Source: Diphasiastrum complanatum (Eukaryota > Streptophyta > Lycopodiopsida > Lycopodiales > Lycopodiaceae). Taken from it: a stretch of DNA of 64,000 nt. Positions 1,887-62,697 of the stretch are shown piece after piece. The notes beneath the pieces were generated by a model. That model was not told where the DNA came from. It worked only from the letters and a program-made list of their open reading frames with translations, and did no database searches. The position numbers were made by a program, and so were the translations under genes. The stretch's first letter is position 1. Each line of letters starts with the position of its first letter. The stretch lies in NCBI GenBank assembly GCA_029204225.1, contig CM055101.1:57472920-57536919 (forward strand). The letters are read 5' to 3'.

Positions 1887-1959
1887 AGTACAACTGAGTT
1901 TACTTTTACACATAGAAAATCAAATTCTCTATGTGTATTACAACTGAGTTTACTTTTAC

Positions 1960-2716
1960 ACATAGAAAATTTGATGCTCCCTCCTTATTTATCTTTTAGA
2001 AAGAATGTTCAGGCTCCAATGCCGACTGCAACAATCAAAATACAAATATCAATAAATCCTTACTTATTAAAGCAATGCCGACTGCAACAATCCAAATTAA
2101 AGCAACAAAAACAAACGAGCAATCCTCACTTATTCTCATATGGAATCAAATAAAATTTTGCCACTGGATTGCATTCGATGAGATATACAGCCTTATCAAA
2201 ATTGCTTCTTTTGTCTTCATTGCTCCCATAAAAAATGGACTAACAACAAAAACTACACCATGAGAATCAGAACTAATACTATCCTACAAAAAGCATCCTT
2301 CGGCTTTTACTATTACATCTGTAATCTTCTGGTGTTTTATCTTTAAGCTCGGCACAAATTCTGGGGCCTAATCTAAAGCTTCTATGTGAATCTGGAAGAA
2401 AGAAAGAAATCAAAATAATTGCCCAAGTAGATCAATTTTATTAGCTAAGTGGGCCTCGTAACTGATTATAATGGTCAGAATAAAAAAAAACTTGAGCGGG
2501 ATTCATATGGAATTTTGACAACAAGATTATATACAGGAGCGAGAAGAGAAATAGATATAATATTTACAGATCTCTCGGTTATTTTGTTGAGCTCCTCTTG
2601 GGTAATCATCACTTTCGTGTGAAGAAACCTTCTGAGGAGCTAGACGAATAACACCGAGGAGGAGAGGGCGATTCTGGGTCTGAATCAGATTCTCCAACAT
2701 CTGATTCAAACCTCAT
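1960..2716 (-). pseudogene. acidic 'SESD' frame and downstream conserved region, degenerate (A1)
   Basis: This is the decayed A1 copy of the frame that is best preserved at 8.03-8.60 kb (A2) and 55.22-55.79 kb (A3). The start methionine is at 2716-2714, followed by an acidic, Ser/Pro-rich stretch (ESDSDPESPSPP) and then a frameshift. Fragments of the later conserved region can be recognised between 2080 and 2480. It lies downstream of the histone-like frame on the same strand and may belong to the same transcript. Function unknown. Confidence 0.5.
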
Positions 2717-2867
2717 GCGAGGTCTCTTCATAGGGATAACTCAAGGAGGAAGAGAAACAACTGGCTTTCGAGATCCAAGTTTCTTGGTTTCAGGCTGTCT
2801 CTTTGTCCTCCTAGAGGTACTCGACAAGTTTGTTCTATTCAGAGGCAGGTCTCTAGAGGTGTTGGCG

Positions 2868-3245
2868 TTATCCACATGTAGACCATAATAACGATCCCAA
2901 AGTCTTATGAGAATGATGGGAATCTGTTGGCATGATGGTGACACGCCTTACCATGCATTCTCAAAAGACAGGTATCCTCAAAAAACTGGGCCAAAAAGTC
3001 TTCTATAGCACCTTGTAAGGCCTGCATGGCTGTCACGGCAAAACGAACATCTAGCCCAAGTGACAGAGTGACATTCTTGATAGATCGGCTGAAAGGAGCC
3101 CTAGGGATCAACAGTTCAGTTGATCTCTTATCTCCCTCAGCCAGACCTGCTTTCTACCACGTCTACGGCCAGTACCAGGGGGAACACAGGCATGGGATGG
3201 CTGTATAATGGTTATGACACGGGCAGTAGATTTGGTCCTAGCCAT
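2868..3245 (-). pseudogene. histone H3-like protein, full-length form with frameshifts (A1)
   Basis: The frame starts MARTKSTAR, as in canonical H3 (MARTKQTAR). It then has a shortened, unrelated tail, PPGT and an LREIR segment matching the H3 'PGTVALREIR' region. After a shift of frame near 3115 it continues as STELLIPRAPFSR..., matching the alpha-N/alpha-1 region (STELLIRKLPFQR in H3). Next come RFAVTAMQALQGAIEDFLAQFFEDT (in two parts: RFAVTAMQALQ, then GAIEDFLAQFFEDT), matching alpha-2. A second shift lies near LLRMHGK. From PF to ALQ the spacing is 28 residues, the same as canonical H3, so loop 1 is not extended as it is in CENH3. An 8-residue basic insertion (GRRRGRKQ) follows PPGT. The gene is driven by the divergent promoter at 3.5-3.9 kb. 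Homology is clear by eye; current function is unlikely. Confidence 0.75.
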
Positions 3246-3289
3246 CATTCTTAGAATAAAAATAAATAAATTAGAAAAAAAAAGTTTGA

Positions 3290-3505
3290 ATCCATGCGCA
3301 GGGAATGAAAACAAAAGAATTTGCGATCAGAAGACGCTTGAGATCGATACCAGAACTGAATATCGGTTTCGAGCACAAGATAGATAGAGAATATGAAGAA
3401 TTGCACTTGAAAGCGATATTGGAATCACAACAATATCGGTCTCGAGCGCACGGTGAGAAGGTGGAGTATTTTGCGAAGAGAGAGCGCGCTTGAGAGTAAT
3501 ATTGG
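3290..3505 (-). promoter_or_regulatory. three-dyad leader array upstream of the H3-like frame (A1)
   Basis: Reading the minus strand from 3505, an ~18-nt motif alternates in orientation. Forward copies (CCAATATTACTCTCAAGCGC type) start near 3505, 3422 and 3351. Reverse copies (GCGCTCGAGACCGATATT type) start near 3450, 3378 and 3309. Each forward copy is largely complementary to the reverse copy that follows, so the RNA could fold into three hairpins. The array begins ~48 bp downstream of the TATA box at 3553-3562 and ends ~45 bp before the ATG at 3245. It would therefore fill the 5' untranslated region. Confidence 0.7.
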
Positions 3506-3876
3506 GAGCGAAAACCAAAAATTTTACGAAAAAAAATAAAAATTCCAAGGGTGTATATATAGGAGATTTTCACACGTGTGCAAAAAATGGATGATGACAC
3601 GTGTCGGCATCTAACTGGTCCACATTGATTGTTCATACTGATAATGATGACTCAATTATGAGGCCACATGGGTCGAGGACACATGCACGAATCAGATTTT
3701 GACATGTGTCATTTGGCACGTGATAGTCGTCAGATTCATTGTCTATATGACGGAATATGAATGACCAATCATGCGACAACACGTGTCCTTTTGAAACTCT
3801 TCCACACGTGCAAATTTTTTTTATAAATAGGTCATTTTTTATGTGGATTTTCACGCAAATTTTTGATTTCTTATCC
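3506..3876. promoter_or_regulatory. bidirectional promoter with two outward TATA boxes and five G-boxes (A1)
   Basis: A TATATATA at 3553-3562 faces the H3-like frame on the minus strand, and TATAAATA at 3822-3829 faces the MSNFD frame on the plus strand. Each TATA is about 48 bp from the start of its own leader array, so the layout is symmetrical. Between them lie five CACGTG cores (near 3573, 3598, 3717, 3780 and 3804), most as ACACGTGT. These are binding sites for plant bZIP/bHLH factors and resemble abscisic-acid response elements. The promoter call is inference from layout. Confidence 0.65.
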
Positions 3877-4108
3877 GGATATCAATTTCAAGTGCGCCCA
3901 TTCCACTGTCTACGTTCCGTTGACAATCTTGCGCCTGGAACCAATACTGCATAGTCTGGTATCGCATTCAAGCGCGTCTTACATCTTTTTTTTTCTAATC
4001 TTTGTACACGTGCTCGGATCCGATACCCTATGTTCTTATATCTCTTTCGAGCGCACATTGCCTTGAGATTCTTGTCTAACCTACATTTTGCGCTTGAGTG
4101 CAATATTG
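3877..4108 (+). promoter_or_regulatory. three-dyad leader array upstream of the MSNFD frame (A1)
   Basis: Six motif copies alternate f-r-f-r-f-r. Forward copies are at about 3879, 3959 and 4038 (for example GGTATCGCATTCAAGCGCG) and reverse copies at about 3929, 4009 and 4088 (for example TTGCGCTTGAGTGCAATATT). Spacing within each orientation is 79-80 bp. The array ends ~30 bp before the ATG at 4139. Same architecture as the array on the other side of this promoter and as the copia leaders at 15.6 and 16.9 kb. Confidence 0.75.
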
Positions 4109-4138
4109 AAAATTTCACATTTGTTTTTTTTGCTCAGA

Positions 4139-4645
4139 ATGTCTAATTTCGATTCTAGTTTGCTTTCTGTTTTTCATGAATTTGGTATTAGTGATAATTT
4201 AGAGTATTTCAAATCCTTTCTTTTTCTTTTCTTTTTATTTATTCTTATTATTGAGGATCCTGGTGTGGAAGCATTTTTTGAGATTTATCTCAAATTTAAG
4301 TCTCTGATCAGTACTCCCTTATGTAGATTTTAGAATAAGGACATGATTCGATATCAGGACCTGGTGGCACTTGACAAGCATAGCTATAAAGCTAAGCTTG
4401 ACAGAATGTTCACCAAGTTACATAATGATTTCAAGTCTGTAGATGAGTGCCCAATTCACAATAAAAAATATAGATTTGTTGATTTTCAGTCTGCATTTGT
4501 TTCTTTTCTTTTGTTAAATATTTCTGACGATTCGAAAGCTGGCCCTTCCACTTCTAAAACCGTGGCAAGTTTTCTTAAACCGGTATCTTTAAATACTCAT
4601 TTTTTAAACAAGCAAATGAACCTTTTTATGAGTAGAAGACTTTAA
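4139..4645 (+). pseudogene. unknown protein, MSNFD family, with one in-frame stop (A1)
   Basis: A single frame of about 168 codons begins MSNFDSSLL, runs through VEAFFEIYLKFKSLIS, meets a TAG at 4331-4333, and continues MIRYQDLVALDKHSYKAKL to a stop at 4645. The same stop is present in the A3 and A4 copies, so it predates the duplications. It may be a genuine end, with the second part translated from its own ATG at 4343. The second half has the short segment CPIHNKKYRFVDF and a Ser/Thr-rich stretch. A4 (61,333-61,839) is nearly identical. I recognise no domain. Confidence 0.5.
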
Positions 4646-4743
4646 AAAATTGAGAAGCTTTATAAAATGCAAGTTTTTTGAGGATAACTCAAAAGAAATT
4701 TCCTTAGCATTGAACACTATCCTTTCGATTTGCATGTATGACA

Positions 4744-5392
4744 TGTGAGAAATTTCAACTAGTTTAGTCAAGATTGATTATAGTTTGATAAATTTCCAAG
4801 TACACAATTGAGGTCAATTTTCATATTAGACTTAGAGTTTGACTTTTTAAAGTTATATTAGTCTAAAAGCAGTTGAATAAACACTTTTAAAAAGTGTGGA
4901 AAATTATAGAACACGAGTTTTGGAGGGATTCAATTTGAGTAGTAGATACATTGAATCTAGTCACAAAAATAATATGATTTTCATTATGGAGGAAAACCAA
5001 AGTTTGAATTTAGGTTTGGACCTGCTATAAAAGGATGTAACTCATGGGAAGAGAGGACATTCTCTCTCTCTTATCTCATTCATGCTTATACATGGTTCTC
5101 TTGAGTTCTACTATCCATTGGTGCACTATACTTGTGATATCTTGCAATTCTATGTGTAGAATGTTCATTAATTGCTATTTTCAGATCCACACGTGTGAAA
5201 TACAGTAGCTTACTATTTTTTTATAGACATCAACATTATTTTATGTTTTTATTGATGTTTGATCAAGAGCTATTAGAGTTTGCATCTCATTCATAGTGTT
5301 TATCCAACATTGGCAAGATTGGTGATTTGCTTGTCTTTCTACTCAAAGATCAAAGGAACATTTTGGATCTTAATCATCTGGAATTCTTCACA
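4744..5392 (+). mobile_element. copia LTR nested in the left arm
   Basis: 649 bp beginning TGTGAGAAATTTC and ending TTCTTCACA, directly followed by TGGTATCAGAGC, the complement of the initiator tRNA-Met 3' end. It contains an ACACGTGTGA motif. It resembles the 655-bp LTR of the intact element at 34 kb in length and ends (TGTGAAAATTG.. to ..TTTTTCACA). The reversed copy is at 60,597-61,235. No 3' LTR is present; only the 5' end of the element survives. Confidence 0.8.
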
Positions 5393-6199
5393 TGGTATCA
5401 GAGCTTGTGTTTCAAATTATGAAGGAAACATTCACAAGTATCAATGATTTGGAGAAGATATCAATACTAGAGCATGCTAGATTTGATTCTACCCCAAAAT
5501 CGAGTTTCTTGCATATGTAGATTGGATCTTTTCTAGATCAAAACGCTAAATAGGGTTATATTCTTAATCAATTCCGATTTTCGCCACATTAATTGTTGAA
5601 TTTGGCAATTTTTAGAGCATTGGAAAAGCCTAAGTGGTGGCTACAAGATTGCATATCAAGTTTTACAATTGCATGTAGATTTTGAAATAATCAATTTTTT
5701 GTGATTTTGTCAAAACTCTAATTTTGTTGGATCTCTACATTGTGAGGTTACTGAACTTCATTTGAGTGTGTTTCAATCTTAGGAAGTGGCAAGAGTCATT
5801 AGATTGAGGATAGATCATAGGTTGATCAAGATTTCACTATTCTATGTGTTGATTTGCTTGGTATAAGTGCTACAAGAGAATTGAGAAGCTTTATATGTTT
5901 GTGATTTCCTTTTGAACACATTTGTTGTTGTTTAGAGGAGTCCTTTGTGCATTGAAATAGGTTGAAAGAGAGGATCAGGTCATTGCTACATCACTACATC
6001 AAGTTGAGTCATGTTGGAAGCCAATGATAGGCTTACCTCAACTAACTATTCATTGTGGAAAGTGAGGATGAAATCACTTCTTGAGATGAATGATATTTTG
6101 GATATTGTTGTAGGTTTGGAGGAGAGGCCAGCAACACAACAAGATCAAATAAGGTATGACAAGAGGGCCAAAAGGGCTCTACACATGATACATTCCTGA
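5393..6199 (+). pseudogene. copia primer site, leader and truncated gag
   Basis: The primer binding site is 5393-5404. After a ~600-nt leader, an ATG at 6011 opens a gag N terminus (MLEANDRLTSTNYSLWKVRM). This is related to the gag of the intact element at 36,038 (MLESSERLSSSNYSTWKVRM). Homology stops after RALHMI at about 6196, where a deletion joins it to an unrelated gene. In the right arm the same gag fragment is followed by ~2 kb of other sequence, so this junction is a later deletion in the left arm. Confidence 0.75.
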
Positions 6200-6998
6200 T
6201 ACAAAAGAAAATTTTGGACAAATAGTCCCAATTCCATTACCTAGTTTTGAAAGTGATGAATGGATTGCACCAGATGTTGCAGTTTCAGAATCATTTCGTT
6301 GCAAGATATATAATGATGTAAACAATTCATTAAAGATAAGCACGAGATCAAAAACAGTCAGATTGAGTTGGTTTATTTTCTTGAATATATTTGTGGATTT
6401 CTTTTAAAGTGTCAATGTACACAAAATCTCAACAATGTTTGTATGCAAAAAGCTATCAGATAGACTATTATCTGAACTTATGGATGAAGGATGGGACAAA
6501 AGATCAGATGGAGAAATAGAATGCAGAATTAAAATGTCTTCCATGTGCTTCTGTTATCAAATTGAAAAACAAATGTTGAGCTTATGCTTCCATTATCAAA
6601 GATGGAAAAAAAAAATAAAGGTAAATGGGTGCCACTCGATCAAGGCTTGGAAGCCAGTGGACATTCAAAACCAAAAAATATGAAATTATATACAATGATG
6701 TCATTTTGACATGCGTTGAGGTGGAAGAAGATTGGAGCCTAAATTACATCAGGCAGGAACTATTGCTCCTACGAGATGATGTACTTTCAGACTTCAGATT
6801 TGTTTTCAATAATAAACTCGTAAGTAACTATAATCACTTGATTCTTTATGAATAGTTTCAATCAAAACTTTCTAATACAATTTCTATATTTATTGTAACT
6901 CAAATTGTATTAGTTTTATGCAGGTACGTAAAAGACATGAGATCGAGATCAAATGCAGAGATATTGGCGAAACGATCACATTTATGGAAGAACACTGA
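6200..6998 (+). pseudogene. unknown intron-bearing gene, 3' part (left-arm copy)
   Basis: Coding similarity with the right-arm copy (56,946-57,852, minus) starts with IPDTKENFGQIVPIPL. A TAA interrupts near 6403, and the frame resumes through MFVCKKLSD and SELMDEGWDKRSDGEIE. After a one-base shift in an A-rich run it continues as KWVPLDQGLEASGHSK, then ILTCVEVEEDWSLNYIRQEL and SDFRFVFNNKL. A GT-AG intron (6820-6923) is followed by an exon encoding VRKRHEIEIKCRDIGETITF and MEEH, then the stop at 6998. Splicing keeps the phase. I do not recognise the family; the last ~75 residues could be a small beta-grasp fold, but that is a guess. Confidence 0.5.
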
Positions 6999-7082
6999 TA
7001 TTCACTATCAACAAACGGGTTGTTTACCTGTAAAATGATTGTATCTTTCTTTTTTTTTGTATCTCTATTCAGAAATGGATTA

Positions 7083-7383
7083 CTATTCAGTAATTTTTTC
7101 TATATTTTTTGTGTCACTATCAAGAACTAATAAGAGAACAGTTTCCTCTTCTATAATCTCGTCTTCCTCTATTTCGGGAAGGACTTCTAGGCCTTTTAAG
7201 ACAAGAAGCCTCTCTGCTATAATATCGCCTTCCTCTGTATTGGGAAGGACTTCTATTCTTTTTTTATCATGTAAAATAATATCTGCATCTTGAGAAACCT
7301 GAGAGGCTATTAAGGTAGGAGCAGCTTGCTTTTAAGGGCCCTTGATTTCAGGTGCAATGCTTACACCATTCTGTACATAGGTT
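7083..7383 (-). pseudogene. unknown acidic protein with a 22-residue repeat (left-arm copy)
   Basis: The minus-strand frame reads VLPNTEEGDIIAERLLVLKG, followed by a second unit beginning LEVLPEIEEDEIIEEE, and ends NIEKITE at 7083. A stop at ~7333, absent in the right arm, breaks it. A splice acceptor-like GATCAG precedes the first recognisable codons near 7383, so this may be an internal or last exon. Function unknown. Confidence 0.4.
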
Positions 7384-7819
7384 CTGATCAATTCTTGTCA
7401 AAATCTATATACATCGTCAGTAGTATACAACTCAAGAGTGAATTGTCATCACAATCAGCAAATTGCAAACAATGATAGTAAAAATATATGAATCAGAATG
7501 AAAGAAATTACAAATGAACAGAATATTATCTTTTCAATATCTAAATCCACTTGTAAATTATACCACTCAAAAAAAAGTTTTGTATTATACAGGACGAACT
7601 ATGCACAACTGACAGCGTCCATTTGCTGTACACACTGCATATATTGAACAAAAATTAGTAATATTATGATAGAAACTTTATTTATGCTATGATGATATAT
7701 TTAAACTACAAAAAAATACATGCATATCAGAGATAAATAGAATATACCTTGAGAGATTTTATGGTTATCTCTCCAATTGAGATTGCCGTTGTCTATATTT
7801 CTCGAACGACATCATGAAG
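7384..7819. other. intron-like spacer of the left arm
   Basis: A/T-rich sequence with no gene that I can support. The right-arm counterpart (56,020-56,430) has an intron-like layout, with AAGGTATATTC as donor and a pyrimidine-rich tract before ATATGCAG as acceptor. This may be the spacer between exons of the gene running from the histone-like frame towards the 22-residue-repeat frame. Confidence 0.3.
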
Positions 7820-8029
7820 TAGAAAATCAAATTCTCTAGGTGTATTACAACTGAGTTTACTTTTACACATAGAAAATTTGATACTCCTTCCTTATTTATC
7901 TTTATAGAAAGAATGTTCAGGCTCCAATGCCAACTGCAACAATCAAAATACAAATATCAATAAATCCATAGTTATTAAAGCAATGCCGACTAAAACAATC
8001 CAAATTAAAGCAACAAAAACTTATTCTCA

Positions 8030-8598
8030 TATGGAATGAAATAAAATTTTGCCACTGGATTGCATTCGATGAGATATAGAGCCTTATCAAAATTGGCTTC
8101 TTTTGCCCTCATCGCTCCCATAAAAAATGGACTAACAACAAAAACTACACCATGAGAATCGGAACTAATACTATCCTGCAAAAAGCATCCTTCGGCTTCT
8201 ACTATTACATCTGTAGTCTCTGGTGTTTTATCTTTAAGCTCGACACAAAATTTGGGACCTAATCTAAAGCTTCTATGTGAATCTGGAAGAAAGAAATCAA
8301 AATAATTGCCGAGAAGATCAAATTTATTAGCTAAGTAAGCCTCGTACTAGTTATAATGGTCAGAATAAAAAAAAAATTGAGCAGGATCGTATGGAATTCT
8401 GACAAAAAGATTATGTACAGTACTAGAAAGAGAAGTAGATACAATATTTACAGACTTCTTGGTTATTTTGTCGAGCTCCTCTTGGGTACTCATCACTTTT
8501 GGTGAAGAAACCTTCTGAGGAGCTGGAAGAATAACACGAGGAGGAGAGGGTGATTCTCCGTTTGAATCAAATTCTCCAGCATCTGATTCAGAGCTCAT
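8030..8598 (-). pseudogene. acidic 'SESD' protein with conserved C-terminal region (A2)
   Basis: The frame starts MSSESDAGEFDSNGESPSPP at 8598, followed by KVSSPKVMSTQEELDKITKK and VHNLFVRIPYDPAQ. A stop follows YSDHYN at 8349, and the same frame then continues through YEAYLANKFDLLGNYFDFFL, PDSHRSFRLGPKFCVELKDK and VVFVVSPFFMGAM. All four A copies keep this order with mostly conservative changes, which suggests past selection on the protein. The first part is acidic and probably disordered. I recognise no family. Confidence 0.45.
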
Positions 8599-8749
8599 GC
8601 AAGGTCTCTTGGCAGGGATAACTCAAGGAAGAAGAGAAACAGTTGGCCTTCAAAATCCAGCCCTTTTGGTTTCAGGCTACTTCTTTTTCCTCCTAGAAGT
8701 AGTCAGCAAGTTTGTTCTATTTAGAGGCAAGTCTCTTGAGGTGCTCGCG

Positions 8750-8908
8750 TTATCCACATGCAGACCATAATAACGATCCCGAAGTCTTATGAAAATGATG
8801 AAAATTTGTTGGCATGATGGTGACGTGCTTATCATGCATTGCCAAAAGACAGGTATCCTCAAAAAACTGGGCCAAAAAGTCTTCTATAGCACCCTGTAAG
8901 GCCTGCAT
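8750..8908 (-). pseudogene. truncated histone H3-like frame, alpha-2 to C terminus (A2)
   Basis: A 52-codon open frame from an ATG at 8908 (MQALQGAIEDFLAQFFEDT) through LLAMHDKHVTIMP to a TAA at 8750. It covers H3 alpha-2, loop 2 and alpha-3 (H3: MALQEASEAYLVGLFEDT, AIHAKRVTIMP). The tail and alpha-1 have been removed by a deletion that A3 shares. The remaining fragment cannot form a complete histone fold. Confidence 0.65.
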
Positions 8909-8909
8909 G

Positions 8910-9090
8910 GTTGAGATTGATACCAGAACTAAATATCGGTTTCGAGCGCAAGATAGATAGAGAATATGTGCAGAAAAGAGAGTTGCGCTCGAAAGCGATA
9001 TTGGAATCACAGCAGTATTGGTCTCGAGTGCACGGTGAGAAGGTGGAGTATTTTGCGAAGAGAGAGCGCGCTTGAGAGCGATATTGGGAG
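8910..9090 (-). promoter_or_regulatory. leader array of the H3-like frame, last reverse motif missing (A2)
   Basis: Alternating copies of the ~18-nt motif, minus-strand order: forward ~9085, reverse ~9035, forward ~9005, reverse ~8955, forward ~8925. The sixth (reverse) copy was removed by the deletion that also took the histone N terminus. The upstream TATA (GTATATATAGG near 9136) and several CACGTG cores up to 9390 are kept. Confidence 0.6.
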
Positions 9091-9525
9091 CCATAACCGA
9101 AAATTCTACAAAAGAAAATGAAAATTCCAAGGGTGTATATATAGGAAATTTTTGCACATGTGAAAAAAATGGATGATGACACATGTCAAAATCTAACTGG
9201 TCCACGTGGATTGTTCGTACTGGTAATGATGACTCAATTATGAGGCCATGTGGGTAGGGATACGTGCACGAATCAGATTTTGACACGTGTCATTCTGCAC
9301 GTGATAGATGTCAGATCAATCATTGTCTGTACCGCGGAATATTAATGACCAATCATGTGGCAACACGTGTCATTTTGAAACTCTTCCACGTGCAAATGTT
9401 TTTTATAAATAGGTCATTTTTGGCATGGATTTTGACGCAAATTTTTTATTTTTATCTGGATATTGATTTCAAGCGCGCCTTTTCCACGATCTAAGTTTCG
9501 TTGACTATCTTGCGCTTGGAACCAG

Positions 9526-10150
<625 letters not shown>

Positions 10151-11604
10151 AAGTAGAAATCCAAGGTCAAAGAGGTGTAGTCAACATCATTTTGATTGGA
10201 CCCCTTGTATATCTCCTCCTAATTTGATTGGTTTAGTGACATAAGGACCCTTGATTATGATTGGACCAATTTCATGGATCTTTCACTTTTCATTGGTCAC
10301 ATGACTTTATGACAACACATAGGAAAGTGTCACTAGCCCTCTCCTATCATGTCATGGGTAAAAGCCTAACCTACCTCAAGCTACATCACACACCAAAATT
10401 GGCCTAATCACCTAGTAACATGTGTGCATGGGGTAGAAAAGTCAAAGTACCCTCCAAATTTAAGATTAAGGCCTATTGACTATTCAAACTCTTTATAAAT
10501 GAACTAAACATATTATGGATACCCTCCACATGTGGGAACATGCTCCACACATGTGAGATTTCACTATGTACATGATATTGCAAAAGATCAAGCTAGATTT
10601 TGCGTATTTTTCACACATTGTTCAACTTGGTTCAAAGAAACATAGGATTTGGCATCTTAAGTTATTCTTTTGGAGTGTCCCAAGCTTATCGAGACATCAC
10701 AACATCGTTGATATGAGTAATCACATTATCTTCAACCAATAGATTGATAAAAATAAGTGATCATCGTGCTCTCTTATCATAGCTTTGGCATTGAATTCCA
10801 CCATGGTTGTCGAACACAATGCTATTGCTCATTTGAAAAAATGCCAACCTACACCAAATCACCTTCCTCCAAGTTTGACATAGTTCGGCTAAACATTTCA
10901 TGATCACAAATTCTTGGGATCAACATGTCGCCAGCTTCCTAGGCAATGAAATGGTTAAACTAGGTTTAATAAATGTTGATTTTCTACTTTGGGGTGAACT
11001 CTCGCTCCCAACATACCATACTTTGCAAGTAAAAGCTTTACCGCCTTGTATTTGGGTCGAATCTGGATGGCCCAAATAGTGGGTAGGGAGCCAAAAATTT
11101 CTTAAGTAGTCAATTTTAGACTATTCCTTCGAAGTGAAATAACTGTTCTTGTAAATGAATTTTACCTATTGCCTGCTTCATAGCCTTCAACTTGAAATTC
11201 TTTTATGAAGTTAACAGGCTCCTTGTCCTTCAAATCCATTTAAAACTTCATGATCAAGGAAACCTCCAAGAAAACATAAATTTTACCTTCAAATACTTCA
11301 GTTTGAGCATTTTGAAGGCTGCCTTTCAAGGAAAGTTGTTGCGAGAGAATTCGGGAAGATTTTGGCTATGTAGGGCCTAGGGAAAGTGTGTCCTCCCTCA
11401 TGGATTTTTTTTTCTCTTATTTTTCTTCTCCCAAGCCATGGCCGCTAGTGGAAAGTAGTCCAATTCAATTGGGAATTTCTCATGCTTTAGTGCATGGAGA
11501 AACTTGCCCTCAAATATGCTATTAATGACAACTTTCCAATCACACAAGATTTCCAAAAACACCCTCCCATACATTTTTAGATACCCATAGTTCCCTATTG
11601 TGGC
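10151..11604. other. no gene seen
   Basis: A/T-rich sequence without domains, introns or repeats that I can support. A short dyad around CCACATGTGGGAACATGCTC and its mate CCACACATGTGAG lies near 10,525-10,560. Confidence 0.5.
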
Positions 11605-13141: not shown

Positions 13142-13226
13142 TTTCTAGAGCTTTCTTCCAACCCTTCTACTCTCTCCTCTCTCTCCTCTCGCACTTTACG
13201 ACAATACATCCTCTTTATATATATTT
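13142..13226 (+). promoter_or_regulatory. promoter of the first hsp20 gene
   Basis: A TTTATATATAT box lies at about 13,215-13,225, roughly 200 bp before the ATG. Upstream, TTCTAGAGCTTTCTTCC (from ~13,144) is an imperfect heat-shock element with alternating TTC and GA units. The inverted gene copy has a better-formed element (TTTCTAGACCTTTCT on the minus strand) in the corresponding place. Confidence 0.5.
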
Positions 13227-13422
13227 TCCTCATCCTTCCATATCTTGCATAATGTCAGTGAGTTCGTGACGAGTTATCTACAACTACGCGGTCATAGTAA
13301 TTGATATAATCTCGACATTGGGGATTCTCAATTCATCAACTCTCGCCATTGAGACAATCTTAGCAATCGCAGACAGCAATTCATTTCTGAGAAGGAAGTT
13401 ATTTTACCTCTTTTAGCTGGAT

Positions 13423-14101
13423 ATGGCTTTGACCCCATTCTTCTTTGGCCGAGATCAAAGTATTTTTGATCCCTTGGATAGAATTCTAGAGCCTTTTGAC
13501 AGATTTCCTCTGTGGGACAATGCACCTTCTCGACAGTTCGCCCAGGATGTGAGTGCCATTGCCAGTACTCGAGTAGACTGGCTCGAAACCCCGGATGCTC
13601 ATATTTTCAAAGCCGATCTACCAGGTAATTCATTGTTCCTGATCTCAGCATATGTCTCTAAGACTTTATGCTCACAATTTCGAATAATCTTCCTCAGTAA
13701 TCTGCAAGCCAGAAAATCTTCATGCTCGGGCTCTCTTTATTGTACTTATTGTTGTTCTCTTTCTCTGATTCATCGGATCTGTATTCTAAATCTTTTGACT
13801 GTGTCTTGATTTGTTGCTATTCTCAATCTCAGGGTTGAAAAAGGAAGAAATAAAGGTTCAGGTGGAAGATGGTAGTACGTTACAGATAAGCGGGGAACGC
13901 AAGAAAGAGGAGGTGGAGAAGACGGACAAATGGCATCGGGTGGAGCGTAGGCAGGGCAGTTTCCTGCGACGCATTCGCTTACCAGAGAATGCGAAAGTGG
14001 AGGAAGTGAAGGCGAAGGTTGAGGATGGCGTCCTCACCGTCACTGTTCCCAAAATCGAGAAACCTAAGCACGAAGAGAAGCCCATCGAAATCTCCAGCTA
14101 A
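13423..14101 (+). CDS. cytosolic class I small heat-shock protein (Hsp20), two exons
   Basis: Exon 1 is 13,423-13,624, the GT-AG intron 13,625-13,832, and exon 2 13,833-14,101. Together they encode 156 residues, the usual size for class I Hsp20. The N-terminal arm ([11 protein letters not shown], then [16 protein letters not shown]) is typical of the class. The alpha-crystallin domain starts around residue 48 ([20 protein letters not shown]) and contains [36 protein letters not shown] and GVLTVTVPK. The C-terminal IEI near the end is the I-x-I motif that bridges subunits in the oligomer. The protein is an ATP-independent chaperone holding unfolding proteins in the cytosol. Intron phase 1 splits the Gly after DLP. 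A poly(A)-like AATAAA lies at 14,126. The gene looks intact. An intron is unusual for this class. Confidence 0.93.
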
Positions 14102-14827
14102 ATTGCAACAACATATTGCATGCCAAATAAAAGAGAACTTCAGATGTTTGAACAACATACGTGTAGCTCAATTTTACTGATTCGCTTTCCAAGCACTAAG
14201 AATGAAACTATGTCCATTATGAAGCCCTTGAATGACTCTGTATCAAGTTTTTGCTACTAGTAGTAATATATAACTTAGCCTATCAAAGGTTTTTATGATA
14301 AATGCGAGTGATGATTTTGGTTTCTTTTTTACCATCAGGTGTATTATCTCTGAGATTGTAGATGTCTAGTGTGCCTTGTTAGTTCTGTGGACGTGTGTGT
14401 TTTGTTGTCTACTCGCAGATATTGCTCTAGAAAATTCTGTCTTAAAATATGTTGATTAGGTTTTCCAAATTTGTTGGCACCTAATTATATGCAATGCAGG
14501 CTACATTACTCTCCAAATAGCACTCCAAATGCTATTTTTAAAAACCTATTGCTTATGTTCTGAAAACCTATGAAGTGGAAAGATTTTTTCAAGTCTTGAA
14601 GGGCACATTCTAGAATCTGCATCTACATATCATATCTCATTTAAACAATGTGTGCATTTGTGATTAGGTTGTGTTGTCACGCACATTGCCTCCTCACACC
14701 CAATGGAGTGTGACACCTCACCCAAATAGCTCCCCATGACGACTATTAGTATTTTATTCGCGTCAAAGAGGCGATGCAATGCTCTCAAACCAATATCCTT
14801 TTTGAAATCATTTGGGCATATACTTTC
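14102..14827. other. 3' flank of the first hsp20 gene
   Basis: To about 14,420 this matches, in reverse, the 3' flank of the second hsp20 gene (21,950-22,340). Shared landmarks include CTCTGAGATTG, CTTGTTAGTT and GTGGACGTGTGTGTT. So the hsp20 duplication includes ~300 bp beyond the gene. The remainder has no gene I can see. Confidence 0.6.
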
Positions 14828-21949: not shown

Positions 21950-22341
21950 GGCGACGGCATCTGTGCGGGTAGATAACAGAACACACACGTCCACAAAACT
22001 AACAAGACACATTAGATATCTCCAATCTCAGAATTAACAGACAACTAGACATCTGCAATCTCAGAGATAATACGCCTGAAGCTAATCTGAGATACAAGAA
22101 AAAATCAAACTCATCACGCGCATTTATCGTTAAAGCCCTTGAAAGGCTAATTATATATTAATAGTAGCAAAACTTGAAACAGAGTCTCTAAGGTGTCCGT
22201 CGCCATTCAAGCCTCAAGGGCTTTGTTATGGACATAGAGTGTCATTCTTATCGCTTGGAAAGCGAATCAGGAAAATTGAGCTAGACGTATGTTGCTCAAA
22301 GTTCAATCTCTATTATCTCGCATGTGGTATGTTGTTGGAAT

Positions 22342-23027
22342 TTAGCCGGAGATTTCGATGGGCTTCACTTCGTGCTTAGGTTTCTCGATTTTGGGAACAG
22401 TGACGGTGAGGACGCCATCCTCAACCTTCGCCTTCACTTCGTCCACTTTCGCATTCTCTGGTAAGCGGAAGCGTCGCAGGAAACTGCCCTGCGTACGCTC
22501 CACCCGATGCCATTTGTCCTTCTTCTCCAACTCCTCTTTCTTGCGTTCCCCGCTTATTTGTAACGTACGTCCATCTTCCACCTGAACCTTTACCTCTTCC
22601 TTTTTCAACCCTGAAATCCGAAACAGCCACAAATCAAGAGGCATTCAAAAGATTTATAATACAGGTCAAAGAAGTCGTACAAAACGAACAACAAGAACTA
22701 CCATAAGGAGCGCAAGATCATGAAAATTATCTGGCAATGTATAAGCCAGGCTGAGAAAGATTATTCGAAATTGTGAGCACAACAAAGTCAAGAGATAAAT
22801 GCTGAGATCGGGAGCAATAAATTACCTGGTAGATCGGCTTTGAAAATGTGAGCCTCCGGAGTTTCAAGCCAGTCTACTCGAGTACTCGCAATGGCGCTCA
22901 CATCCTGGGCGAACTGTCGAGAAGGTGCATTGTCCCACAGAGGAAATCTGTCAAAAGGCTCCAAAAATCTATCCAGGGGATCAAAAACACTCTGATCTCG
23001 ACCAAAGAAGAATGGGGTTAAAGCCAT
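22342..23027 (-). CDS. cytosolic class I small heat-shock protein (Hsp20), inverted second copy
   Basis: Exon 1 is 23,027-22,826, the GT-AG intron 22,825-22,611, and exon 2 22,610-22,342; again 156 residues, with the intron at the same codon as the first gene. About a dozen residue differences are scattered (for example [12 protein letters not shown] versus [12 protein letters not shown], and REDs conserved around WHRVER). [26 protein letters not shown] and the terminal IEI are kept. It faces the 13.4-kb gene tail to tail. Reading frames, splice sites and promoter are intact, so both copies may be active. Confidence 0.93.
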
Positions 23028-23219
23028 ATCCAGTCTAAGATGGTATAACTTCCTTCTCGGAAATGAATTGCTGCGTGCGATTGCTAAGATTGTGTAGAGT
23101 TGATCAATTGAGAATCCCCAATTCAGAGCTTATATCAAATACTATGACCGCGTAGCTGTAGATAGTTCGTCTAGAACTCAGTGCTCACTAATATTATGGC
23201 AGCAATGGAAGAATGAGGA

Positions 23220-23340
23220 AAATGAGAAATATATATATACAGAGAGAATGTATAGCGTTAAAGAGTAGAAGAAAGGTCTAGAAAGGTCGAGAAAGAGAGA
23301 GAGGAGGAATCTAGAAGACTCGAGAGAATGGAAAGGGGAA
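23220..23340 (-). promoter_or_regulatory. promoter of the second hsp20 gene
   Basis: On the minus strand the sequence has a TATATATAT box near 23,228-23,240 and, just upstream, TTTCTAGACCTTTCT and TTCTAGATTCC. These are alternating TTC/GA units fitting heat-shock elements bound by HSF. The layout parallels the first copy. Confidence 0.55.
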
Positions 23341-25714: not shown

Positions 25715-28612
25715 CTATTCTCAAAAGTCTTGTATGTTTCTAAGCTCTCTATAAATTTGTTATTAGTAAGTAGAATTACAGATTTAGGTCATAAGGTGGA
25801 GTTTGAGTCAGATCAATGTAGAATTATCAATAGGAGCAATAAGATCCTTACACTCAGCAAGAGGCGTAGATACTTATATAGATTGGCACATTGTTATTCT
25901 GATTCTAGTCAAGCCTTGAAAACCTCTGTTTTTGTCAATAAAGCATTACTATGACATCACCACTTAGGACACTTGAATTATGCATCTGTTTTGAACATGT
26001 CCAGACAATCCCTAGCACTTGATCTCGACTATCCTTTTGACAAAGTCAATCTCCCTGTGTGCCATAAGCTACATTCTTGGAAAGCAAACTAGGATTCCTT
26101 TTAGATCGAGTCATAAGCATGCAGATGTTGTTCATTCAGATATATGTGGAGCTATGCAAACTCCATCATTACTAGATGCAAAGTATTTCATTACCTTCAT
26201 TGACTAATTCTCCAGAAGAACAGTTGTTTACTTCATTAAGCAAAAATCGGAGACTTTCATCAAATTCAAACAATTCAAAGAGCATGTAGAAAATCAAACT
26301 GACAAACGAATCAAAGCACTGAGGTCCGACAACGAGGGAAAATCATTAGAGGAATTCTGAATCCAAAAAAGACCCTTAAAGGAATGCCACATAGATTGAC
26401 AAAGTTTATTAATGTAAACTACCAAAATAAATTCATTTTCTATCCAAAGTCTTTTTCATTTCTACCCACACTTTTTTCGATGCTTAACCCTTCTATGTAC
26501 ATTACCATTTGTAGTTCATTGAAAATAGTATAACTTTTTAATTGTAGCTCCGATTGAGACAAAAATTATATCGTTGGAAAGCGCTTGATGAGAGCTTTCC
26601 AACAGTATCCTAGATGACCTAATTCCAAGTACCATTCAAAAGTTATGGCCGATTAAAGTCTCAACAAAAAGAAGTCCAAATATCGCTCTTGTGCGCGGAT
26701 AGAAGGGGCCATCTCTGTGTACAAGAATGATATTTGGACCTTTTTTTGTTGAGAATTTGACCGGCCATAACTTTTGAATGGTAGCCTGGAACAGGTCATG
26801 TAGGATACCGTTGGAAAACTCTCGTCGAGCGCTTCTCAACAATATAATTTTTGTCTCAATCGGAGCTACAGTAAAAACGTTATGCTATATTTAATGATAA
26901 TTGTATTTTATACTATGGATAACATGTCATGCTTGTGGGCTGTCCCCGACGCCAAATTATAAAATTATTAAGGATTTTTTTTTGTTTTTTCAATTCTAAT
27001 GAGCTACGTTACGTAGATTTCAAATTTGAGTGTTTTGATTGGTCCATGTATAAGCAAAATTTGAGAAAAGAATATAAAAAATATCTTTATAAAGGGTCTT
27101 TTTTGGATTTAGAACTCTAATGATATCTCCACCAAATTTAAGCAATACTGCCTTAACAATGGCATTGAGCAACAATACATTACCTCCTATTCGCCTCAGT
27201 CAAATGGTCTTGCTGAGAGAAAGAACAGAACCTTAGTCGAATCAGCAAAGTGCATGTTATCACATGCGACACTTTCGAAGTCCTTATGGGCTAAATCTGT
27301 ATCAATAGCAAACTATATTTAGAACAGATGTCCTATTAAAGGTGACTCAGACAAAACATTATTCGAAGTTTGGACAGCTACCAAACCTTCTTTATTAAGC
27401 TGACGAGTGTTTGGATGTACTGCTTATGCACAGATTCGAAGAAGACATTTACATGGTGCAACCCAAAGGTTATATTATTGAAGGTAAACACAATCATGTG
27501 TGTAAACTCTTTATGGCTTGAAACAATCTGCTCGAACATGGTTTCAAAGGATCAATACTTTTCTTATTGATCACGGCTACACACCTAGCTCTTCAGATTC
27601 GAATATTTACTTCAAGACAATGCAACAGTCTTTTATCATTATCACTCTATACGTGGACAACACATTGCTCTTTGGCAACAATATCGATCTGATAAAAGAA
27701 GCTAAGACTATGCTATCTTCCGAATTCGACATGACCGATCTGGACAAAGCTCATTTTTGCCTTGATATTCAAATCTATAGAGACAGAAATCAGAAGTTGC
27801 TCTACATTACTCAACAGAGGTACATCTACAATATGTTGGTCAGATATAATCTACTTAATTGCAAGTTATCTCTCTCACCAATGGAACCAGATCTCAAATT
27901 GTCAAAGGACCAATGTTCGCAAACAATCGAAGAAAAGGAGCAGATGTGTGAGTATTCTTATCATTCGATAATAGATCTCTTATGTACGTAATGCTCTATA
28001 CCAGGCTAGACATAGCTTCTGCAGTCAGCTCCCTAAGTCAGTTTATGACTAACTCTTGTATGACACATTGGAAGGCTCTTATCAAAGTCATGAGATATCT
28101 TCGAGCTACTATGGACTTTTGTATTTGTTATGGAGCAGTTGACAATGACAAACTCAATTTACTCAGTGGTTACATAGATGCAAGTTGGGCAGAAGATGTA
28201 GACACTCGTATATCCACTTCTGGTCGCAAGCAATCTTTGATAGCTCTATCTTCTACAGAATCAAAGTATATCGCAGCCTTACAAGCTACAAAGGAAGCAA
28301 TTTGGTTGAGAAACTTACTTTCAGATATCAGTCTAAATCAATATGCTCCGACATTACTATTTTGTGATAATCAAAATGCCATTGTCTTGTCAACCAAACC
28401 TAGATTTCATTCTAGGAGTAAGCATATTGAACTCAAGTATCACTATGTCAGAAGCAAAGTTCTCGACAAAGAGGTCAAATTGTAGTATTGTCGAATGCAA
28501 GATATGACAGTAGATATTTATACCAAAGCATTAAGCTTGGATGCACACAGAAAGTTCTGTGCAGAACTAAGTTTAAAGCTCAAGGCATTCATGGATTCGG
28601 ATTATGGGAGAG
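25715..28612 (+). pseudogene. copia polyprotein remnant (integrase, RT, RNase H)
   Basis: Order: GAG-pre-integrase region (SKVLYVSKLSINLLLVSRIT, LGHKVEFESDQC), integrase start with HSDICGAMQTPS and LRSDNEGK, an inserted foldback element (26,344-27,122), then SYSPQSNGLAERKNRTLVES. An internal deletion near 27,420 removes the end of integrase and the start of RT. RT resumes at EDIYMVQPKGY and carries YVDN instead of the catalytic YVDD. RNase H follows (SSTESKYIAALQATKEAIWL, FCDNQNAIVLSTKPRFHSRS). Several stops and shifts. The polyprotein ends just before the polypurine tract (ATTATGGGAGAG) at 28,612. Confidence 0.85.
26344..27122. mobile_element. foldback / TIR element inside a copia integrase
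   Basis: A 779-bp insertion with imperfect ~38-bp terminal inverted repeats: CATTAGAGGAATTCTGAATC at the left end against the reverse of GGATTTAGAACTCTAATG at the right. It splits the integrase codons DNEGK | ISTKFKQYC. Inside, 26,517-26,897 is a long imperfect palindrome, arms ~170 bp (GTAGCTCCGATTGAGAC at 26,544 and its mate ending 26,869). There is no coding capacity, so it must be non-autonomous. The flanks suggest a short AT target duplication, which is not certain. Confidence 0.7.
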
Positions 28613-54119: not shown

Positions 54120-54353
54120 CCAATATCGCTCTCAGGTGCAAAATGTAGGTCAGACAAAAATTTCAAGGCAATGTGCACTCGAAAGAGATATAATAACATA
54201 GGGTATCGGATCCGAGCGCATGTACAAAAATAAAAAAAGAAGCAGATGTAAGATGCGCTTAAATGTAATATTGGACTATGCAGTATCGGTTCCAGGTGCA
54301 AGATAGCCAACGGAACGTAGATAGTGGAAAAGGTGCACTTGAAATCGATATCC
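54120..54353 (-). promoter_or_regulatory. three-dyad leader array, MSNFD side (A3)
   Basis: Same six alternating motifs as 3877-4108, read on the minus strand from 54,353 (CGGATATCGATTTCAAGTGC) to 54,120 (TGCACCTGAGAGCGATATTG). Confidence 0.7.
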
Positions 54354-54726
54354 GGATAAGAAATAACAAATTTGCGTCAAAATCCACGTAAAAAATGACC
54401 TATTTATAAAAAACGTTTGCACATGTGGAAGAGTTTCAAAACGACACGTGTTGCCACAAGATTGGTCATTAATATTTCGCGGTACAGACAATGATTGATC
54501 TGACATCTATCACGTGCAGAATGACACATGTCAAAATCTGATTCGTGCATGTATCCCGACCCACGTGGCCTCATAATTGAGTCATCATTATCAGTACAAA
54601 CAATCCACGTGGACCAGTTAGATGCTGACATGTATCATCATCCATTTTTTTCACATGTGCAAAAATTTCCTATATATAAACCCTTGGAATTTTCATTTTT
54701 TTTTGTAGAATTTTTGGTTTTCGCTC
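54354..54726. promoter_or_regulatory. bidirectional promoter (A3)
   Basis: Outward TATA boxes: TTTATAAATA on the minus strand near 54,401-54,410 and TATATATAAA on the plus strand near 54,671-54,680. Several ACACGTG/CACGTGG cores between them. Layout as in A1. Confidence 0.6.
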
Positions 54727-54905
54727 CCAATATCGCTCTCAAGCGTGCTCTCTCTTCGCAAAATACTCCACCTTCTCATCGTGCACTCGAGACCAATACT
54801 GCTGTGATTCCAATATCGCTTTCAAGCGCAATTCTCTTTTCTGCACATATTCTTTATCTATCTTGCGCTCAAAACCGATATTAACTTCTGATATCGATCT
54901 CAACC
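54727..54905 (+). promoter_or_regulatory. leader array of the H3-like frame, five motifs (A3)
   Basis: Forward motifs at about 54,727, 54,811 and 54,889 and reverse motifs at 54,781 and 54,862. The last forward motif (TGATATCGATCTCAACC) runs directly into the ATG at 54,906; the deletion removed the sixth motif and the histone tail. Confidence 0.7.
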
Positions 54906-55064
54906 ATGCCGGCCTTACAGGCTGTTATAGAAGACATTTTGGCCCAGTTTTTTGAGGATACTTGTCTTTTGACAATGCATGGTAAGCGTGTCAGTATCAT
55001 GCCAACAGATTCTCGTCATTCTCTAAAGACTTCGGGATCTTTATTATGGTCCACATGTGGATAA
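54906..55064 (+). pseudogene. truncated histone H3-like frame (A3)
   Basis: 52 codons: MPALQAVIEDILAQFFEDTC, then LLTMHGKRVSIMPTDSRHSL, ending WSTCG and TAA. This is H3 alpha-2 to the C terminus only. The frame is open from an ATG that directly follows the leader, so a short peptide could be made, but it lacks half of the histone fold. Confidence 0.65.
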
Positions 55065-55215
55065 CACCAGCAACTCCAGAGACTTGCCTCTGAATAGAAC
55101 AAACTTGCTGACTACCTCTAGGAGGAAAAAGAGGTAGCCTGAAACCAAAAAAGATGGATTTCAAAGGCCAGCTGTTTCTCTTCTTCCTTGAGTTATCCCT
55201 GCCAAGAGACCTCGC

Positions 55216-55790
55216 ATGAGCTCTGAATCAGATGCTGGAGAATTTGATTCAGACCAAGAATCACCCTCTCCTCCTCGTGTTATTCGTCCAGCTCCTCAGA
55301 AGGTTTCTTCACCAAAAGTGATGATTACCCAAGAGGAGCTCGACAAAATAACCGAGAAATCTATAAATATTGTATCTACTTCTCTTTCTGCTCCTGTACA
55401 TAATCTTTTTGTCAGAATTTCATACGATCCTGCTCAAGTGTTTTTTTATTCTGACCATTAAAACCTGTACGAGGCTTACTTAGCTAATAAAATTGATCTT
55501 CTCGGCAATTATTTTGATTTCTTTCTTCCAGATTCACATAGAAGCTTTAGATTAGGTCCCAAATTTTGTGTCGAGCTTAAAGATAAAACACCAGAGATTA
55601 CAGATGTGATAGTAGAAGCCGAAGGATGCTTTTTGCAGGATAGTATTAGTTCCGATTCTCATGGTGTAGTTTTTGTTGTTAGTCCATTTTTTAGGGAGCG
55701 ATGAAGGCAAAAGAAGCCAATTTTGATAAGGCTGTATATCTCATCGAATGCAATCCAGTGGCAAAATTTTATTCCATTCCATATGAGAAT
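55216..55790 (+). pseudogene. acidic 'SESD' protein with conserved C-terminal region (A3)
   Basis: MSSESDAGEFDSDQESPSPP, KVSSPKVMITQEELDKITEK and VHNLFVRISYDPAQ, with a TAA at 55,459-55,461. The same frame then continues NLYEAYLANKIDLLGNYFDF, FLPDSHRSFRLGPKFCVELK, EAEGCFLQDSISSDSHGVVF and VVSPFF. A one-base loss follows near 55,700, then MKAKEANFDKAVYLIECNPV. It lies 150 bp after the histone-like stop; the linker contains a basic TTSRRKKR segment in A2 and A4 that could be a nuclear localisation signal. Unknown family. Confidence 0.45.
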
Positions 55791-56019
55791 AAGGATTGCT
55801 TGTTTTTTTTTGTTGCTTTAACTTGGATTGTTGTAGTCGGCATTGCTTTAATAAGTAAGGATTTATTGATATTTGTATTTTGATTGTTGCAGTTGGCATT
55901 CGAGCCTGAACATTCTTTCTGTAAAGATAAATAAGGAGGGAGTATCAAATTTTCTATGTGTAAAAGTAAACTCAATTGTAATACACCTAGAGAATTTGAT
56001 TTTCCACTTCATGATGTCG

Positions 56020-56431
56020 TTCGAGAAATACCAACAACGACAACCTCAATTGGAGAGATAACCATAAAATCTCTCAAGGTATATTCTATTTATCTCTGAT
56101 ATGCATGTATTTTTTTTTTTAGTTTATAGCATAAATAAATTTTTTGTCATAATATTACTAATTTTTGTTTAATATATGCAGTGTGTACAGCAAATGGACG
56201 TTGTCAGTTGTGCATAGTTCATTCTGTATAATACAAAGCTCTTTTTTGAGTGGTATAATTTACAAGTGGATGTAGATATTGAAAAGATAATATTTTGTTC
56301 ATTTGTAATTCCTTTCATTCTGATTCATATTTTTTTACTATCATTGTTTGCAATTTGTTGATTCACATGTTTTGTGATGACAATTCACTCTTGAGTTGTA
56401 TACTACTGACGATGTATATAGATTTTGGCAA
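56020..56431. other. spacer with an intron-like segment
   Basis: AAGGTATATTC near 56,077 and TTAATATATGCAG near 56,180 have the form of a GT-AG intron. Flanking coding sequence is too short to confirm it. Confidence 0.3.
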
Positions 56432-56743
56432 TAATTGATCAGAACCTATGTACAGAACGGTGTAAGCATTGCAACTGAAATCAAGGGCCCTCAAAAGCAA
56501 GCTGCTCCTGCCTTCACAGCCTCTCAGGTTGCTCAGGATGCATATATTATTACACATGATAAAAAAGGAATAGAATTCCTTCCCAATACAGAGGAAGGCG
56601 ATATTATAGCAGAGAGGCCTCTTGTCTTAAAAGGCCTAGAAGTCCTTCCCAAAATAGAGGAAGACAAGATTATAGAAGAGAGAACTGTTCCCTTATCAGT
56701 TCTTAATAGTGATACTAAAAACATAGAAAAATTTACTGAATAG
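56432..56743 (+). CDS. unknown acidic protein or exon with a 22-residue repeat
   Basis: An open frame of about 100 codons without the stop that breaks the left-arm copy: NGVSIATEIKGPQKQAAPAF, then two similar units beginning GIEFLPNTEEGDIIAERPLV and GLEVLPKIEEDKIIEERTVP, ending NIEKFTE. There is no upstream ATG in frame; a GATCAG acceptor-like site precedes the first codons, so it is more likely a last exon than a whole gene. Rich in Glu/Ile, possibly a helical or disordered linker. Function unknown. Confidence 0.4.
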
Positions 56744-56945
56744 AGATCCATTTGTAAATAGAGATACAAAAAAAAAAAAAAGATACAATCATTTTACAGG
56801 TAAACAACCGGTTTATGGAGTTTTTATTGATATCAATATAGATTCTTACAATCAGGTTGTGTCGATAATAGTGTAATATTGGAATACAATTTTCTATATT
56901 GATAAAAAGACATGATAATTGGAATGTATTTGTTGATAGTGAATC

Positions 56946-57852
56946 TCAGTGTTCTTCCATAAATGTGATCGTTTCGTCAATATCTCTACATTTGATCTCG
57001 AGCTCATGTCTTTTACGTACCTGCATAAAACTAATACAAACTGAGTTACAATAAATACAGAGATTGTATTCGAAAGTTTTGATTGAAACTATTCATAAAG
57101 AATCGAGTGTTTATAGTTACTTACGACTTTACCATTGAAAACGAATCTGAAGTCTGAAAGTACATTATCTTGTAGGAGCAATAGTTCCTGCCTGATATAA
57201 TTTAGACTCCAATATTCTTCCACATCAACACATGTCAAAACGACATCATTGTATATAATTTCAATATTTTTTCGTTTTGAATGTCCACTGGCTTTCAAGC
57301 CTTGATCGAGTGGCACCCATTTACCTTAATTTTTTTCCATCTTTGATAATAGAAGCATAAGCTCAACATTTGTTTTTCAATTTGATAACGGAAGCACATG
57401 GAAGACATTTTAATTTTGAATTCTATTTCTCCATCTGATCTTTTGTCCCATCCTTCATCCATAAGTTCAGATAATAAACTATCTGATAAATTTTTGCATA
57501 CAAACATTGTTGAGATTTTGTGTACATTGGCACTTGAAAAGAAATCCACAAATATATTCAAGAAAATAAACCAACTCAATATGACTGTTTTTGATCCCAT
57601 GCTTATCTTTAATGAATTGTTTACATCATTATATATCTTGCAACGAAATGATTCTGAAATTGCAATATCTGGTGCAATCCATTCATCACTTTCAAAACTA
57701 TGTAATGGAATTGGGACTATTTGTCCAAAATCTCCTTTTGTATCAGGAATGTACATTGATTCATAAAAAAAGATCCCACTATCAACTAGATCTTTTGCAG
57801 TTCTACCTCGATATTGCAGCTGTCCAGTAACAGTGTGAATAACATTTAACAC
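56946..57852 (-). pseudogene. unknown intron-bearing gene (right-arm copy)
   Basis: A better preserved copy of the 6.2-7.0 kb gene. From ~57,880: NEWEPSGSLAGVLNVIHTVT, RTAKDLVDSGIFFYESMYIP, FGQIVPIPLHSFESDEWIAP, FRCKIYNDVNNSLKIS, then MFVCKNLSDSLLSELMDEGW and MCFRYQIEKQMLSLCFYYQR. A one-base shift follows near 57,305 (also in the left copy), then KWVPLDQGLKASGHSKRKNI, LTCVDVEEYWSLNYIRQEL and SDFRFVFNGKV. A GT-AG intron (57,124-57,021) and a last exon of 25 codons ending MEEH at 56,946 complete it. Upstream sequence is displaced by a solo LTR at 57,888. Unknown family. Confidence 0.5.
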
Positions 57853-61869: not shown

Positions 61870-62103
61870 CAATATTGCACTCAAGCGCAAAATGTAGGTT
61901 AGACAAGAATCTCAAGGCAATGTGCGCTCGAAAGAGATATAAGAACATAGGGTATCGGATCCGAGCACGTGTACAAAGATTAGAAAAAAAAAGATGTAAG
62001 ACGCGCTTGAATGCGATACCAGACTATGCAGTATTGGTTCCAGGCGCAAGATTGTCAACAGAACGTAGACAGTGGAATGGGCGCACTTGAAATCGATATC
62101 CGG
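61870..62103 (-). promoter_or_regulatory. three-dyad leader array, MSNFD side (A4)
   Basis: Reversed counterpart of 3877-4108 with all six motifs. Confidence 0.75.
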
Positions 62104-62474: not shown

Positions 62475-62697
62475 CCAATATAGCTCCCAAGAGCTCTCCC
62501 TCTTTGCAAAATACTCCACCTTCTCACCATGCGCTCGAGACCGATACTGTTGTGATTCTAATATCACTTTCAAGTGCAATTCTTCATAATCTCTATCTAT
62601 CTTGTACTCGAAACCGATATTCAGTTCTGGTATCGATCTCAAGCATTTTCTGATCGCTAATTCTTTTGTTTTAATTCCCTTGCGCATGGATTCAAAT
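62475..62697 (+). promoter_or_regulatory. three-dyad leader array, H3 side (A4)
   Basis: Forward motifs near 62,475, 62,558 and 62,628; reverse motifs near 62,528, 62,601 and 62,680 (CTTGCGCATGGATTCAAAT). It ends ~40 bp before the ATG at 62,736. Confidence 0.7.

Follow-up and report, generated by a model that had tools for sequence, protein, structure and literature searches.

The TnpA sites of the Spm/En (CACTA) transposons are short motifs repeated in both orientations near the transposon promoter, in a subterminal position. In the copia element of Drosophila, a leader enhancer made of repeated enhancer motifs lies between the long terminal repeat (LTR) and gag. The Drosophila gypsy insulator, located in the 5' untranslated region, spans 340 bp and comprises 12 Su(Hw) sites (PMC2374998), and a fungal hAT transposon is described as having captured histone H3 (PMC6710886). 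In this work, a 64,000-nucleotide stretch of Diphasiastrum complanatum DNA (contig CM055101.1 of assembly GCA_029204225.1, positions 57,472,920 to 57,536,919; referred to as the window) was analysed, in which the leaders of two divergent genes of one DNA transposon, an H3-like gene and the MSNFD gene, carry arrays of the same inverted motif pairs. The same array is present before the gag gene of an unrelated copia family.

Architecture of the two leader arrays

One copy of the unit, copy A, consists of a bidirectional promoter core flanked on either side by a motif array (Table 1). Each array site is bipartite, with the core ATATCG followed by seven bases and GCGC, and an array of six sites covers approximately 240 bp with a repeat period of 80–84 bp. 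A preliminary description of the window, prepared from its letters alone, had proposed six alternating forward (f) and reverse (r) motifs, f-r-f-r-f-r, on both sides of the promoter. This holds for the plus leader, where the six motifs form three dyads, and for five clear motifs of the minus leader. The sixth minus motif, which had been placed near 3290, is degenerate: in copy A it scores 5.8, with −9.7 for the reversed control, in copy A' 6.3 and in both L012 and L025 8.7 (L numbers denote loci fetched from the genome). A score above 10 was reached in 1 of 24 copies only (L018, position 5057, score 17.5); the other copy A motifs score at least 21, with a matrix slightly different from that used for the sixth. 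The period of about 80 nucleotides and the complementarity of each f motif to the next r motif are real, and the distances of the arrays from the TATA-like boxes and to the start codons at 3249 (minus) and 4139 (plus) agree with the sequence. As had also been described, each array is flanked by a TATA-like box on one side and a start codon on the other, the two products being unrelated, and the arrays would therefore belong to the 5' untranslated regions.

Genome-wide, the motif form of the DNA element gave 1566+1633 matches at up to two mismatches, compared with 18+11 for the reversed pattern, far above chance. The arrays are a conserved module and, as had been proposed, not chance repeats. 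Of 107 adjacent f-r pairs counted in the DNA element, 92 have their starts 52–53 bp apart. Across 24 copies, motif columns are more conserved than spacers (0.861 over 231 columns versus 0.770 over 187, p = 1.5e-8), despite the CpG contained within the motifs.

In copy A, the alignment of the minus arm with the plus arm extends from TATA to start codon and scores 133 (300 shuffles: mean 57.7, maximum 84), and the majority arms of 24 copies align with a score of 161 against a maximum of 83 in 500 shuffles. The promoter core of the 24-copy majority is itself an imperfect inverted repeat (score 68, shuffle maximum 38). Taken alone, neither the TATA part (33, maximum 42) nor the last 45 bases (23, maximum 37) of the majority arms is significant. 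As judged from these alignments, promoter and leader together form one imperfect inverted duplication of a single unit, and this explains the presence of one type of leader before two different genes. That the two leaders were acquired independently is disfavoured given that the arms align; the term 'acquired' used in the preliminary description is thus appropriate for the inverted duplication of one promoter-leader unit, and not for two separate acquisitions.

The DNA transposon and its products

On sequence grounds, the region around copy A is the centre of a DNA transposon. Twenty loci were fetched from 100 listed motif places, and all 20 contained motif arrays and aligned to copy A, with the array in a central position in the sampled elements. 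The length of the element, approximately 9.7 kb, was measured at a single locus, L028 with L029, where it extends from 1456 to about 11780 and contains a 633-bp insert that is not counted; the promoter and plus leader are present in this element one additional time. The insert occupies 10355–10988 of this locus, and part of it is also found beside the element end in L022. By eye, the element ends are short and alike in inverted orientation, reading CATTAGAGAAA or near variants at the left ends of L012, L018, L022 and L028 and, reversed, at the right ends of L027 and L028. A blastn comparison of the two L028 ends returned no significant terminal match, and no clear target site duplication was present at L028, the sole locus showing both ends. 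With 1.8 motif matches per locus, the copy number of the family comes to an estimated 1,800, a rough figure given that the loci sampled were selected by exact match. Many of these copies are decayed and most are probably decaying; L046 and L047 are diverged copies of the element.

The H3-like frame, interrupted in copy A, has diverged from H3. Longer frames are present in other copies, and a long C-terminal stretch follows the H3-like part (window 2655–3249, minus strand, and L012, L020, L021 and L024). The MSNFD product is represented by a 500-aa stop-to-stop frame in L028, for which there was no Pfam match at the curated cut-off and no relative at E up to 1 among 223 candidates. The element also encodes a transposase-like protein without a Pfam match at the cut-off, whose predicted fold resembles RAG1/Transib.

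A copia family as second carrier

Two frames of the window that follow further arrays encode a copia-type gag (Retrotran_gag_2, 6.1e-22 and 6.1e-26). The copia form of the motif gave 1507+1386 matches genome-wide, compared with 0+2 for the control, and the family is estimated at approximately 1,050 copies. Ten copia loci were fetched, all belonging to one copia family, of which eight were counted and two overlapped others; L049 is a copia copy. Among 29 dyads from the eight loci and the two window arrays, with only spacings of 45–58 searched, the spacing is 52 in 28 and 53 in one.

Both families have the same core bases, and these related cores account for 3199 and 2893 genome matches against 29 and 2 in the controls. 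An r-f junction pattern common to both families was matched 1296 times (627+669, some places being counted on both strands), with none for the control. Identity between the spacers of the two families is 0.22–0.52, equivalent to shuffle level (null mean 0.39, 95th percentile 0.53), and the spacer length is 31–32 in eight of nine majority dyads, the ninth being without a clear r motif.

Carriers beyond these two families were sampled, and two weak candidates were seen, both doubtful as third contexts. Foldback repeats at L048 1140–1680, arranged in part as 74-bp tandem units, contain a similar core (TAATATCGGTTCAGCGCGC), and the resemblance may be due to chance. On a small contig, L045 has two weak dyads about 80 bases apart at 1438–1600 and is a possible third carrier.

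Proposed function of the arrays

It is considered probable, if only by a little, that the array is a DNA module recognised by a sequence-specific protein, and that this protein requires its sites in pairs with about five helical turns between them. The sequence, its spacing and conservation, the inverted duplication and the presence in two families are shown; the binding, its effect and the nature of the binder are inferred. The six bipartite sites would act as inverted pairs, with their starts 52–53 bp and hence about five turns of the helix apart. A sequence-specific protein, probably a dimer or tetramer, would bridge both sites of a dyad and, bound just downstream of the promoter, could activate, repress or insulate. 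In the DNA transposon, the inverted duplication would place the divergent H3-like and MSNFD genes under joint control. As the module also precedes gag in an unrelated copia family, a host protein is the likelier binder, ahead of any protein that either element encodes. More tentatively, and at less than even chances, a single host DNA-binding protein reading inverted pairs five turns apart may have been taken into service by two transposon classes that are unrelated, in thousands of copies and through one leader architecture, amounting to a common class I/class II control code.

The preliminary description had allowed for a selected or acquired module of either RNA or DNA-binding type. The DNA branch stands, and the RNA branch fared badly on covariation. 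That each dyad forms an RNA stem-loop in the 5' untranslated region, controlling translation, stability or packaging, is judged unlikely. Both copy A leaders do fold more stably than shuffles, and slightly more so than their antisense strands (minus leader z −3.6, plus leader −5.2; antisense −3.0 and −4.2). Over 20 copies, however, the antisense folds equally well (20 of 21 rows per leader were compared, one being dropped for length or missing sequence). The sense strand had z < −2 in 19/20 minus and 12/20 plus leaders, compared with 20/20 and 12/20 for the antisense, with mean z of −3.78 versus −4.35 (minus, paired p 0.22) and −2.10 versus −1.96 (plus, paired p 0.65). Covariation between the paired arms, which the preliminary description had proposed to examine, is weak, with permutation p values of 0.04, 0.35, 0.23, 0.71 and 0.07 for the five dyads (21 rows, three window copies having been dropped). 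Departures from the paired consensus were counted over 24 rows and the copia dyads. Double changes keep a standard pair in 33 cases and do not in 23, in favour of a stem; single departures comprise 111 G-U versus 148 A-C (48 versus 63 by distinct column and type), so that wobble pairs are not preferred on the sense strand. At one position, three of the five dyads repeatedly show a C.C mismatch (18/20, 20/20 and 13/17), with A.C there in the fourth (17/20) and a pair in the fifth (14/17). The cores are identical in both families although pairing would permit change, and the window contains no Rfam match at the gathering threshold. With most copies probably decaying, late neutral changes would dilute these RNA tests. 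Overall, the weak covariation, the lack of wobble preference, the recurring mismatches and the equal folding of the antisense disfavour the stem-loop as the principal explanation.

Equally unlikely is that the binder is the DNA transposon's own protein, serving self-regulation or as a transposition accessory, a role for which TnpA of Spm is a precedent, and that copia took the array from the transposon. Such a transfer is possible, and the central position of the array in the sampled DNA elements is counted in favour of a self-encoded binder, as is the alignment of copia array C1 with the minus arm of the DNA element (score 94, shuffle maximum 59). The other three comparisons of copia arrays with arms remain within shuffles (54, 50 and 44 against maxima of 67, 69 and 59), the spacers of the two families are unalike, and no motif above 10 occurs near the fetched ends (left ends of L012, L018, L022 and L028; right ends of L027 and L029). 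The inverted arms of about 20 bases, loops of about 31 and strand-symmetric folding would also suit hairpins that give rise to small RNAs, of MIR-like or heterochromatic type, by which the elements are silenced. This is thought improbable, as a small-RNA source has no need for sequence identity or fixed spacing across families and the arms are imperfect with recurring mismatches. Marginally less probable still is a non-functional array that arose by tandem and inverted duplication long ago and was carried along by transposition, with its conservation reflecting recent shared ancestry only. The copies do descend by transposition, many having decayed, the dyads of copia hardly differ from one another, and likeness persists between some spacers of the DNA element. 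Against this, most spacer pairs within the DNA element are near shuffle level while motifs and spacing persist, and the motif columns surpass the spacers within copies.

Several observations weigh against the proposed protein-bound DNA module. One copy A dyad has a spacing of 43, and the r-to-f spacing varies: 76 of the 85 adjacent pairs counted in the DNA element have 26, 28 or 30, and the copia loci have 28 or 32, so that not every site is helically phased. Complementarity is to some extent partner-specific, as a stem would require: H3-type dyads match their partners at 14.47 versus 14.09 when permuted (p 0.02, 17 dyads), copia dyads reach p 0.05 and both families together p 0.001, and in the eight copia loci the partner match is 13.45 versus 13.22 (p 0.0016). 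The effect within leaders has p 0.06, and at consensus level 38/120 permutations are equally good, a result that counts against an RNA stem. The three copia dyads are recent tandem copies with a unit identity of 0.84–0.88, and the copia array lies about 550 bp past what is presumed to be the primer-binding site, so its distance from the LTR promoter differs. Spacers within the DNA element also keep some likeness (m2-p2 0.66, above all nulls), and the constant spacing may come partly from shared descent.

Genomic context

The window lies in a 1.74-Gb genome and, judged from its gene content of copia retroelements (Pfam copia gag and RVT_2), an HSP20-family frame and repeated blocks, would be plant nuclear DNA. 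Besides copy A it holds three further block copies (B, A' and B') and the two copia arrays, none of which the preliminary description of this region had mentioned. The stretch at 1.95–9.5 kb recurs inverted at 53.7–64 kb, with 94% identity over 4,247 bases and 92% over 2,538, a large inverted segmental duplication of window 1954–9523 and 54288–64000. Each inverted block has two copies of the promoter-leader unit, A with B and A' with B', and in every copy the bidirectional promoter lies between motif arrays, with truncation of the arrays in copy B. About 130 kb upstream of the window, L026 is a 99% inverted match to window 4089–8000. Elsewhere, 13223–14231 and 22214–23223 form an inverted pair of 86% identity with the HSP20-family frame in the second stretch, and a palindrome (83% identity) that covers some 380 bp at 26516–26897 has a weak motif-like match close to its centre. 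No tRNA was found in the window.

Table 1. Positions of the promoter, leader arrays and reading frames within the window
Feature	Position	Strand	Remark
Bidirectional promoter core, copy A	3549..3835	.	TATA-like boxes facing both directions
CACGTG boxes of copy A promoter core	3573, 3598, 3717, 3780, 3805		five boxes
Minus-leader array, copy A	3332..3504	-	five motifs
Minus-leader motifs, copy A	f1 3484-3504, r1 3431-3451, f2 3401-3421, r2 3358-3378, f3 3332-3352	-	
Degenerate sixth minus-leader motif r3, copy A	3285..3305	-	score 5.8
Plus-leader array, copy A	3877..4108	+	six motifs
Plus-leader motifs, copy A	3877-3897, 3929-3949, 3957-3977, 4008-4028, 4036-4056, 4088-4108	+	
H3-like reading frame with C-terminal extension	2655..3249	-	interrupted in this copy; start codon 3249
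MSNFD gene start	4139..4645	+	interrupted here
Minus-leader array, copy B	8905..9086	-	copy B without ~305 bp including the H3-like start
Plus-leader array, copy B	9458..9530	+	truncated
Copia leader array C1	15642..15879	+	three dyads; upstream of gag start read at 15994; gag by Pfam
Copia leader array C2	16925..17165	+	second tandem copy; before second gag frame
Plus-type leader array, copy B'	54121..54353	-	block inverted in window
Minus-type leader array, copy B'	54728..54909	+	
Plus-type leader array, copy A'	61870..62101	-	
Minus-type leader array, copy A'	62476..62648	+	

Significance and comparison with known systems

If the proposed module is correct, one genome would contain a retrotransposon and a DNA transposon with a compact control module in common, its motif and spacing being precise enough for the binder to be sought and tested, and a single host factor could control thousands of unrelated elements at once, or be exploited by them. 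A carrier with an H3-like gene and a RAG1/Transib-like predicted fold also bears on where such transposons and captured histones occur. A literature search for a described leader or motif of this kind gave no match by title or abstract start, which does not in itself show absence.

The arrays resemble the TnpA sites of Spm/En in being short repeated motifs in both orientations near a transposon promoter, whereas those sites are subterminal and the arrays described here are central and common to a copia family. The leader enhancer of Drosophila copia likewise has repeated motifs between LTR and gag of a copia element; to our knowledge, it neither contains inverted dyads of 52-bp spacing nor is common to a DNA transposon. 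As in the fungal hAT case (PMC6710886), an H3-like sequence has been amplified inside a DNA transposon, although here the H3-like frame is long-extended and diverged and resides in an element with a transposase-like protein of predicted RAG1/Transib-like fold. By analogy, the gypsy insulator is the nearest described case found, being a retroelement whose 5' untranslated region contains clustered sites recognised by a DNA-binding protein (PMC2374998); the binding sites described here are putative. In both, a cluster of repeated sites precedes the first gene of the element. Compared with the gypsy insulator, the present arrays differ in their inverted pairs at fixed spacing, in their occurrence in two element classes and in a binder that is hypothetical, and the printed Su(Hw) consensus does not resemble the motif shared by the DNA transposon and the copia family.
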